From contig CACDZM010000002.1 in the NCBI GenBank assembly GCA_902557215.1, forward strand, positions 123,679-187,678: a stretch of 64,000 nucleotides of DNA, given 5' to 3'. Numbering within the stretch: position 1 is the stretch's first letter; each line of letters begins with the position of its first letter. Source of the stretch: an uncultured Pelagibacteraceae bacterium. GTDB lineage: Bacteria; Pseudomonadota; Alphaproteobacteria; Pelagibacterales; Pelagibacteraceae. The notes beneath the pieces are model-generated. The model had not been told where the DNA came from. It saw only the letters and a list, made by a program, of their open reading frames with translations, and searched no databases. This document shows, in pieces, positions 10,346-17,397 of the stretch. Made by a program: the position numbers and the translations under genes.

Positions 10346-11836
10346 ATGAAGTTATTTTTTATACTTGGCAATCAATTATTTCCACCAAAATACTTAGACC
10401 GCTTCAAAAAAGACCACCTATTTTTTATGGCAGAAGATTACCAACTTTGCACTTATGAAAAACATCACAAGAATAAAATCCTTCTATTTTTATCATCAAT
10501 GCGTTCACATGCAGAAACTCTCAAGAAGGATAAGTTTAAATTAGAGTATTTTAAAATTGAGGACAAAGAATTTAAAGACGACTATTTAAAGAAATTAAAA
10601 AAAATAATTAATTCAAAAAAAGTAAAAGAAATTTGTAGTTTTGAAGTTGAGGATAAATTTTTTGAAAAAAAAATTGATCAGTTCACTAAAAAAGAAAAAA
10701 TTAAATGGAATATTGTTCAAACTCCAATGTTTTTAAACTCAAGAGATGAATTCAAAAAATATCTTTCAAAATCAAAAAAACCATTCATGGCAACTTTTTA
10801 CAAGGAAGTGAGAAAAAAATCTGGAATATTAATGGGTTCTGATGGAAATCCTATAGGAGGTAAATGGAGTTTTGATGAGGATAATAGAAATAAGTTACCA
10901 AAAAATATTTCTATTCCAAAGTTTCCAAAAATTAATGAAACTAATCACACTAAAAAATTAAAACCTATTATTGAAAGACTATTCAAAGATCATCCAGGAA
11001 CAACTAAAAACTTTTGGTTTGCTACAGAATATAATGACGTGGTCAAATTATTAAATTTTTTTATTAAAGAAAAATCAAATTTATTTGGTGATTATGAGGA
11101 TGCAGTTGATCAAAAAGATAATATTTTATTCCACAGTGCTTTAAGTCCTTATATTAATTTAGGTTTAATCACTCCTGAATTTATTATCAAAAAAGTTTTA
11201 GATTTTCATAAGAGTAAAAAAATCAGATTAAATTCTTTAGAAGGTTACGTGCGTCAGGTTATAGGATGGAGAGAATTTATGAGAGGAATTTATCAAAGCT
11301 ATTCAAATGAAATGGAAACCAGAAACTTTTTTAAACAAAATCGTAAAATGAAAAAGTCATGGTACGAGGGCACGACTGGCTTACCCCCATTAGATTATGC
11401 AATCAAAAATGCTTTAAATCATGGATGGTCTCATCACATTGAAAGATTAATGATTTTATCAAACATCATGAATCTTTGTGAAATAAAACCTACCATTGTT
11501 TATAAATGGTTTATGGAAATGTTTGTAGACTCCTCAGATTGGGTAATGGTACCCAATGTCTATGGCATGGGATTATTTAGTGATGGAGGAATATTTGCTA
11601 CTAAACCATATATTTGTGGATCAAGTTACTTTATGAAAATGATGGATTTTAAAAAAGGTGATTGGTGCAATATAATGGATGGTTTGTATTGGAGATTTAT
11701 TGATAGAAATAGAAAATTTTTTTTGAAAAACCCAAGGTTATCCATGATGGTTAAAATTTTCGATAAAATGAAAAGTGATAGAAAAAAATTAATTCTTCCT
11801 GCTGCAGAAAAATTTATTAAACAAAACACACTTTAG
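10346..11836 (+). CDS. Cryptochrome/photolyase family protein (PhrB/FeS-BCP-related)
   Basis: [13 protein letters not shown]...[57 protein letters not shown]. Confidence 0.9.
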
Positions 11837-15194: not shown

Positions 15195-15416
15195 ATGAAT
15201 AATAAGATTTTTGAGTGGGCAGGTGTAATTACAGCAATATTATACTCATTATTCGTAGCTTTGAATATTGGTATAGAGTTTTTTGGTTTTTGCTTATTAC
15301 TTATATCTGCAATCTTAATTGGAATTTGGGCTTATAGGGGCGGTCATAGAGGAATATTATTTTTACAATTTTTTTATGCCACGGCAGGAATTATTGGAAT
15401 GTTAAGGTGGTTTTAA
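15195..15416 (+). CDS. Small hypothetical membrane protein
   Basis: 73 aa, about three hydrophobic helices. Confidence 0.65.
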   Translation: MNNKIFEWAGVITAILYSLFVALNIGIEFFGFCLLLISAILIGIWAYRGGHRGILFLQFFYATAGIIGMLRWF

Positions 15417-16552
15417 TTTAAAGACGTAATTATTTTAGGAATATAATTTTTAAAATTGAAAAAACCTTTATTACAATAATGCCAAGAATATTGATCGAGT
15501 TTTCTATATAAAAAATCTAATTTATAATCATTTGAGTTTAAATAATCCAGGTTTTCACCAACAGTTGGATATAAAGCAATAACTTTCTCATTTATATTTT
15601 TAATTTCACTTATATCTACTACTTCACAGGCGATAGATTTATTTTCTAACCTTAGTTTTTGATCCTTAATTAAAAGTGATTTAAATTTGATAACTTTTTC
15701 ACTTAGCTTGATAGATCTATTTTCATTTTTATTTGAAATTATATAAATTTTTTTAAATTTGTTATTTTGAAAATCGGTGGTTTCAAATGATAAATTATTT
15801 TCAAAAATAAAAAGATTTCTATCACCAATATTTTTACTATTAAAATCTTGTTTAATTATTGAGTAAGTTTTTTCAGAAACTTTCGGAGGAGCATTTTCAT
15901 TCAATTTAATATTATTAAATCTATTATTAGTGAATTTTTTAATATTCCGTTCGCTAGCTAGATAATGTTTTCCTTGTGTTTGAATTCCAGCTACCCATCT
16001 CCAACCAAGGGTATTAGACGCAGAGTCACCATCATAAAGATGTTGCATAAAAAATTCTGCTCCTAATTGCCAAGGTAATTCTAAAGTAAAAATCCAAATA
16101 CTAGCAAACCACATTCTTGTGTGATTATGTAAATAGTTATTTTCTTTAAGCTCTGTTACCCAGTAATTAAAACATTCAATATTGGTTTTGCCATCTAAAG
16201 CATTTTTGTAATTTTGGTTATCTTTATATTCTTTTCGAATTTTATTTAACTGTACTAAATAATCTGTCCAAACGTTTGGTCGTAATTCTAACCAACCTTT
16301 CCAATATGTTCTCCATAAAACTTCTTGAATAAATTTTTCATTTTTTGAAAAAGAAAATTTGCTAAGTGATTTTTCAATAACTTCTTTCTCGCTGATAACC
16401 CCATGAGTAATATATGGAGATAAACCTGATATATTTGTTCTTTTTTCTGGACCGAAATCAAAATTTCTTAGTTTGGAATATTCGGAAAGATTTTTTTCTA
16501 TAAAATTATTTAATCTATTTAAGGCCGCGGCCTTTGAGGCTTCAAATTTCAT
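15413..16552 (-). CDS. FAD-binding photolyase/cryptochrome-related protein, FAD domain N-terminal
   Basis: NISGLSPYITHGVIS, KFIQEVLWRTYWKGWLE, WQLGAEFFMQHLYDGDSASNTLGWRWVAGIQTQGKHYLAS match the photolyase FAD-binding domain at the start of the protein. Confidence 0.88.
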   Translation of the reverse strand: MKFEASKAAALNRLNNFIEKNLSEYSKLRNFDFGPEKRTNISGLSPYITHGVISEKEVIEKSLSKFSFSKNEKFIQEVLWRTYWKGWLELRPNVWTDYLVQLNKIRKEYKDNQNYKNALDGKTNIECFNYWVTELKENNYLHNHTRMWFASIWIFTLELPWQLGAEFFMQHLYDGDSASNTLGWRWVAGIQTQGKHYLASERNIKKFTNNRFNNIKLNENAPPKVSEKTYSIIKQDFNSKNIGDRNLFIFENNLSFETTDFQNNKFKKIYIISNKNENRSIKLSEKVIKFKSLLIKDQKLRLENKSIACEVVDISEIKNINEKVIALYPTVGENLDYLNSNDYKLDFLYRKLDQYSWHYCNKGFFNFKNYIPKIITSLN

Positions 16553-16558
16553 TTTGAC

Positions 16559-16939
16559 TTATTTTGATTTTTTTTTCTTTAGACCAAGTTTATCGCTATG
16601 TCTTAATCTTAAAATAACAATTGCACCTGCAATTAGAACTATAGCAACAGCTTCATAAACTAAGGCTGTTGGATCCATTTCCTTACCTTGAAGAATAATA
16701 AATCGAGCTAAAGCAGTAATAGCAATTAATAATGGAAGAGTAATACTAATTGATTGCTGGTTCCAAAAAACTCTTACCATTGCAAGTACTTCTAAGTAAA
16801 GAAACATCAACAACAAATCTGCTAAAGTCACTGATCTATTTTCAAACATCTTGTACATTTCTATACCAACTGCAATAACCGTGCTTATTAAAATGATAAC
16901 CATTAAAATAAGCTGTAAATTTTTTGCTATTTTTTCCAT
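16559..16939 (-). CDS. PsiE-like (phosphate-starvation-inducible E) membrane protein
   Basis: LADLLLMFLYLEVLAMVRVFW and four-TM pattern. Confidence 0.8.
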   Translation of the reverse strand: MEKIAKNLQLILMVIILISTVIAVGIEMYKMFENRSVTLADLLLMFLYLEVLAMVRVFWNQQSISITLPLLIAITALARFIILQGKEMDPTALVYEAVAIVLIAGAIVILRLRHSDKLGLKKKKSK

Positions 16940-17397
16940 TATTTATCTTTACTAAATGGTAACCATTTTTCAAACACAGATTTAGAAGAACCATCATAGG
17001 GGATAGAATACGAATACGGATTAGGACTAGTTAAGACCTCTATTCCTTTTGAAAAAACAAAAATAAAAACGATCACAAAAACTAAAACCATTATTTTAAA
17101 TGGATCAAAATTTTTAGTCTTGAAAACGCTCGTTGAACTCTCCTCAGCTCTGTGGAAGTGTTTAAATGTCATGTAGACTGCAAATATTAATCCAACATGA
17201 GCTATGAAAAGTCCCGCCCACCCAAATGCGAAAGTGGTATATGAAAAAACGTATAAACTGAAAACAGTGGTCCAAATAAAACTTAAGACTAACAGAATTT
17301 GTAATCTTACTGTTTTAGGTAAAGATCTTAAATCATTTTTACTGTCATCAAACAAAATGTTTGCAGTATCTCTCATCCAATTTTTAAACGATTCCAT
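16939..17397 (-). CDS. Hypothetical membrane protein
   Basis: Three or more TM segments; start overlaps neighbouring gene. Confidence 0.6.
   Translation of the reverse strand: MESFKNWMRDTANILFDDSKNDLRSLPKTVRLQILLVLSFIWTTVFSLYVFSYTTFAFGWAGLFIAHVGLIFAVYMTFKHFHRAEESSTSVFKTKNFDPFKIMVLVFVIVFIFVFSKGIEVLTSPNPYSYSIPYDGSSKSVFEKWLPFSKDK

Follow-up and report, generated by a model that had tools for sequence, protein, structure and literature searches.

A SAR11 photolyase-family protein with its FAD domain first and a probable, divergent photolyase alpha/beta domain at its C-terminus

We analyzed a photolyase-family gene of a Pelagibacteraceae (SAR11) bacterium, known from an 88%-complete draft genome of 1.12 Mb. 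The gene lies in a stretch of 64,000 nucleotides (contig CACDZM010000002.1, positions 123,679 to 187,678; the window in what follows, to which coordinates refer unless another source is named). Its product carries the FAD domain at the N-terminus, and profile comparisons and the predicted fold support the view that its C-terminal domain is a displaced photolyase alpha/beta domain that has diverged strongly in sequence. The protein is very probably a member of the published NewPHL class. The features of the gene are as follows.

15413..16552, minus strand: FAD-first photolyase gene of NewPHL type, 379 aa plus stop
15917..16546, minus strand: FAD-binding catalytic domain, aa 3-212, from the alignment to E. 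coli PhrB 200-395
15959..16333, minus strand: Pfam FAD_binding_7 match, aa 74-198 (profile positions 1-127 of 203, so that the match stops short of the final third of the domain)
15827..15916, minus strand: linker, aa 213-242, from the alignment; low pLDDT
15416..15826, minus strand: C-terminal alpha/beta domain ("Z-domain"), aa 243-379, from the profile bridge, the model and the fold matches

The FAD domain and the occurrence of the gene

The open reading frame is intact and encodes 379 residues, identical to the product quoted in an earlier note on this DNA, which had described the FAD domain as coming first with no alpha/beta domain before it. This description holds. The sole Pfam match of the protein is FAD_binding_7 (PF03441; aa 74-198, E 5.9e-17), and the antenna domain PF00875 was not found in the Pfam search. 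In an alignment with E. coli photolyase (1dnp), residues 3-197 of the query pair with positions 200-395 of that enzyme. Considering that residue 3 is already matched with E. coli residue 200, the alpha/beta domain is wholly absent from the N-terminus. Behind the aligned FAD part come approximately 45 residues, made up of a remnant of the FAD domain and a linker, and then the C-terminal domain of approximately 137 residues. The equivalents of E. coli Y222, S235, E274, W277, R278, N341, R344, M345, W359, D372, D374, N378, W382 and W384 are kept. Among 35 diverse alphaproteobacterial members, the catalytic and FAD residues are mostly invariant or nearly so. The position of W306 is occupied by Tyr in the SAR11 protein, which leaves two of the three residues of the tryptophan chain.

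The nearest named relatives belong throughout to Pelagibacteraceae, where 80 full-length proteins are 78-93% identical to the query over the whole length. The NewPHL-type gene is present in 74 of the 118 Pelagibacteraceae genomes sampled, and in 39 of the 45 with completeness of at least 90%. FAD-first relatives with the full architecture were seen in approximately 21 of 289 sampled alphaproteobacterial genomes. Homologues of 31-34% identity over the whole length occur in Ruegeria TM1040, Niveispirillum, Novosphingobium, Peteryoungia and Asticcacaulis, the families represented including Roseobacteraceae (Ruegeria TM1040), an Azospirillaceae and a Sphingomonadaceae. Because 80 relatives within Pelagibacteraceae share it and the full-length architecture recurs throughout Alphaproteobacteria, the FAD-first order is neither chance nor an artefact of assembly. 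The viral contigs, scanned with the 379-aa protein, the family alignment and one diverse member, yielded no relatives.

Two local observations are of note. In one SAR11 genome (G758, contig C7, 27154-28294) the gene is broken into two overlapping frames with stops, likely by a frameshift or an assembly error. Immediately upstream of the photolyase gene in the window are two small membrane-protein genes (16559-17397, minus strand), a possible operon; the first encodes a PsiE-family protein (16559-16939), and the second (16939-17397) overlaps it by one base.

The C-terminal domain

The C-terminal domain matched neither Pfam nor PDB sequences in single-sequence and profile searches, and hmmscan to PF00875 was negative. 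Its own profile, run on 399 Pseudomonadota genomes, recovered FAD-first proteins only, besides three marginal matches (E >0.001). We modeled residues 238-379 with AlphaFold, using an alignment of 81 SAR11 rows. The model (pLDDT 76, pTM 0.73) has the order beta1-beta2-alpha-beta3-alpha-beta4-alpha-beta5, with strands at aa 246-250, 269-273, 309-313, 324-327 and 346-348, and this is the strand and helix order of the photolyase alpha/beta domain. The conserved C-terminal tail comprises D353, W357, GFFxF and IPK; the model is of low confidence and unreliable over its final 16 residues. A model of the whole protein was poor (pLDDT 49) because the alignment was limited to SAR11 rows, and its fold search was uninformative.

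The model was searched with Foldseek against the PDB. The best query TM-scores among the listed matches were those of photolyases (9q8f 0.53, 9hnk 0.52, 4cdn and 8ijy 0.51; probability 0.98-0.99), the prokaryotic 6-4 and class II photolyases in the list spanning 0.43-0.53 (probability 0.84-0.99). None of the matches reached E 0.001. Folds of other HUP/Rossmann-like proteins (PPAT, USP) ranked beside the photolyases. Among viral models, the fowlpox and baculovirus photolyases and myxoma M127L were within the top ten, with E above 0.001. Structure prediction and fold search of the C-terminal part, both proposed in the earlier note, thus placed photolyases among the best matches, each of them individually weak.

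The connection to the canonical domain was made through a third family. Eight alphaproteobacterial genomes contain FAD-only genes for short photolyase-like proteins (L106-L113), and in all eight a small gene on the same strand follows immediately downstream. These lone alpha/beta genes, together with the one of a Deinococcus locus (L171), encode 130-180 aa. A profile (A4) was built from the eight downstream genes and Deinococcus homologues. Its eight strong matches in the 289 alphaproteobacterial genomes were exactly the eight downstream neighbors. The profile also finds the N-termini of full-length photolyases (best E 1e-8), and four of its nine members match PF00875. The Deinococcus members match PF00875 at E 2e-4 and 1e-3. 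In hhalign it matched the canonical N-domain with a score of 51.9 (shuffles 18.9 ± 4.1) and a probability of 95%. The NewPHL C-domain in turn matched the lone alpha/beta profile with a score of 31.7, compared to 13.2 ± 2.5 for 150 block shuffles, at a probability of 59-82% and E 1e-4 to 1e-5, over 127 columns that include the C-terminal tail. The direct comparison of the C-domain with the canonical N-domain was weak (probability 6%, score 22 versus 14 ± 2.6 for shuffles, 1 of 150 higher), and for this reason the homology rests on the bridge and on the fold. Profile search of the C-terminal part alone, likewise proposed earlier, supports the homology by way of the lone genes and not by a direct match. 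The tails align in register: GFFNFKNYIPKI in SAR11, RFFQYWNKVKK in the lone genes, and the VFTPFW region in canonical photolyases. The likeness of the terminal GFFNFKNYIP to the end of the canonical domain, suspected from the sequence in the earlier note, is supported by this register.

We consider it unlikely that the C-terminal part came from an unrelated protein, such as a USP-like one, as a generic Rossmann/HUP-like domain that converged on the photolyase alpha/beta fold. Such an origin would suit the weak direct match and the nearness of PPAT and USP to photolyases in Foldseek, but decoy profiles fared differently from the lone genes: the USP profile met the C-domain locally only (29 columns, score 18) and the ETF profile gave no match, whereas the lone genes align over 127 columns, tail included. 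USP does touch the lone alpha/beta profile over 38 columns; these genes, however, lie directly behind FAD-only photolyase genes and match PF00875. A displaced photolyase alpha/beta domain, as the earlier note had inferred, thus remains the supported assignment, given the strand and helix order, the photolyases found by Foldseek (E above 0.001) and the profile bridge.

The same note had offered circular permutation as the cause. The reversed order of the domains is real, but permutation in the strict sense was rejected: both domains keep their internal order, and for this reason we prefer an inversion of two whole domains.

Class assignment and predicted activity

The earlier note knew of no description of the permutation. 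Photolyases of inverted domain topology have, in fact, been published as NewPHLs (Emmerich et al. 2020, NAR 48:12845); NewPHLs are on record from D. shibae, M. mesophilicum, E. litoralis and R. centenum. A 2026 paper (PMC13274461) ascribes the inverted topology to NewPHLs, citing Emmerich et al. 2020, and gives four alphaproteobacterial references. As the inverted order was published in 2020 as the NewPHL class, the SAR11 protein is not a new kind of photolyase. It has the FAD domain at the N-terminus, a second domain at the C-terminus, and the FAD-binding and catalytic residues of photolyases. Its assignment to the NewPHLs is very probable, the characterized members (D. shibae A8LJA9, M. mesophilicum M7YZC8) being matched by description and not by alignment; they too are alphaproteobacterial, with an N-terminal FAD domain and a second domain behind it. 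A SAR11 member was apparently not singled out in the NewPHL literature. New here are this member, the profile bridge, and the alpha/beta gene behind all eight sampled alphaproteobacterial FAD-only genes.

Other classes fit less well. The N-terminal PF00875 domain of class I/III CPD photolyases is absent; the class I enzyme E. coli PhrB shares the residues of the FAD domain but has the opposite order, with PF00875 at its N-terminus. The DASH model scored 64 bits, below its cut-off of 317, and the N-terminal alpha/beta domain is missing in this respect as well. Short photolyase-like proteins (SPL) likewise have a FAD domain with no alpha/beta domain before it. Xu et al. 2021 reportedly described them as devoid of the alpha/beta domain; the SAR11 protein has a C-terminal domain of this type. 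In the eight SPL sampled, the alpha/beta domain resides in a separate downstream gene, whereas in NewPHL it is fused.

Our best reading of the protein is a blue-light CPD photolyase for single-stranded DNA, with activity and substrate both predicted. The residues retained here have established roles in photolyases, namely in FAD binding, in contacts with the dimer and in electron transfer, and their conservation makes a repair enzyme the likeliest interpretation. The N-terminal helical domain would bind FAD and the pyrimidine dimer, and blue light would drive electron transfer from reduced FAD, splitting the cyclobutane pyrimidine dimer (CPD). The protein lacks the final portion of a classical FAD domain, and for this reason its C-terminal domain most likely lies against the FAD domain and closes the pocket. 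It would thereby stabilize the enzyme, whether or not it also holds an antenna pigment; both the sealing of the pocket and a chromophore are predictions. A role of the C-terminal domain in sealing the FAD site was reportedly put forward by Emmerich et al. 2020. According to an mBio 2022 paper (PMC9426592), proteins of the FAD-first/Z-domain type from D. shibae and M. mesophilicum have been shown to be CPD photolyases for single-stranded DNA, and by analogy with these characterized NewPHLs the SAR11 protein should act on single-stranded DNA.

It is improbable that the protein is a cryptochrome-like light sensor and not a repair enzyme. The equivalents of the catalytic E274, N341, M345 and N378 are kept and nearly invariant, and relatives are reported, in secondary citation, as repairing CPDs in single-stranded DNA; set against this are the loss of the third Trp of the electron chain and the classical and 6-4 photolyases that the genome already has. 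The former is full-length (contig C22) and the latter is encoded in the window (10346-11836). A DASH protein was not found among the three PF03441 matches of this 88%-complete assembly. A NewPHL specific for single-stranded DNA would complement the classical and the prokaryotic 6-4 photolyase. The 6-4 enzyme itself (plus strand) has a DPRP domain and matches AfPhrB over its full length. It is devoid of at least three of the four Fe-S cysteines of AfPhrB (C350 is replaced by Pro, and C438 and C441 fall in a 10-residue gap), and it resembles the Fe-S-less Prochlorococcus PromaPL type.

Selection on the two domains was evaluated by comparing the window gene with 19 gap-free SAR11 orthologues. The FAD domain had a median dN/dS of 0.07. 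The C-domain, with a median of 0.19, evolves faster, yet under purifying selection. The C-domain is thus not decaying, contrary to the term "decayed" used for it in the earlier note. The reading of the protein as a truncated photolyase whose tail is decaying or disordered has practically no chance of being correct and is refuted by the selection and fold evidence, since the faster rate of the C-domain (0.19 versus 0.07) is still far below 1, the gene is kept in 39 of 45 near-complete genomes, the predicted fold is confident and tail residues are invariant.

Origin of the reversed order

The FAD part also precedes the alpha/beta part, in one gene or two, in Synechococcus Phr4 and Phr5, in Cyanobium Phr6 and in fused Deinococcus proteins. 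The mBio 2022 paper (PMC9426592) describes split phr4/phr5 and fused phr6, FAD first, as well as Prochlorococcus Phr7, which consists of an N-terminal FAD domain and a C-terminal Z-domain. Phr7 is like the SAR11 protein in this and in residing in a marine streamlined genome, Phr7 being cyanobacterial. According to the same paper, Phr4 and Phr6 have Fe-S cysteines, unlike the SAR11 protein. The Deinococcus plasmids hold both the split form (L171) and fused forms (L172, L175); in the fused proteins the alpha/beta part still weakly matches PF00875, unlike that of SAR11. In the sampled Alphaproteobacteria, short photolyases regularly belong to split operons (8 of 8 FAD-only genes in 289 genomes).

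These arrangements suggest, with arguments that we judge evenly balanced, that the "short" lineage never lost its alpha/beta domain but kept it as a separate gene behind the FAD gene, and that NewPHL/Phr6-type proteins are fusions of this two-gene operon. If the two genes of a split operon fused, the reversed order would arise with no need for circular permutation, and we infer that fusion is the simpler route. In a tree of the FAD domains the NewPHL and canonical groups each form one clade (100/99 and 100/100), and the SPL/fused group is weakly supported as a clade (81/47). The tree is compatible with fusion, yet it comprises three groups, lacks an outgroup and so cannot tell which group is ancestral. 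On a Persicobacter plasmid (L174), an ORF starting at 1704 encodes a FAD-first protein of 447 aa, with a divergent C-terminal domain ending in SGYYPSFFAYWKKARKYL; a second cryptochrome/photolyase gene, this one full-length, follows directly downstream.

The profile bridge puts a probable identity on a C-terminal domain that is otherwise unrecognized. The reversed order could be traced to the split operons, which is a testable proposal, and these operons also call for some qualification of the view that short photolyases have no alpha/beta domain. The NewPHL-type photolyase is a near-universal gene of Pelagibacteraceae, which are among the most numerous bacteria of the sunlit ocean, and in the bacterium studied here it sits beside a classical and a 6-4 photolyase in a streamlined genome of roughly 1.2 Mb.
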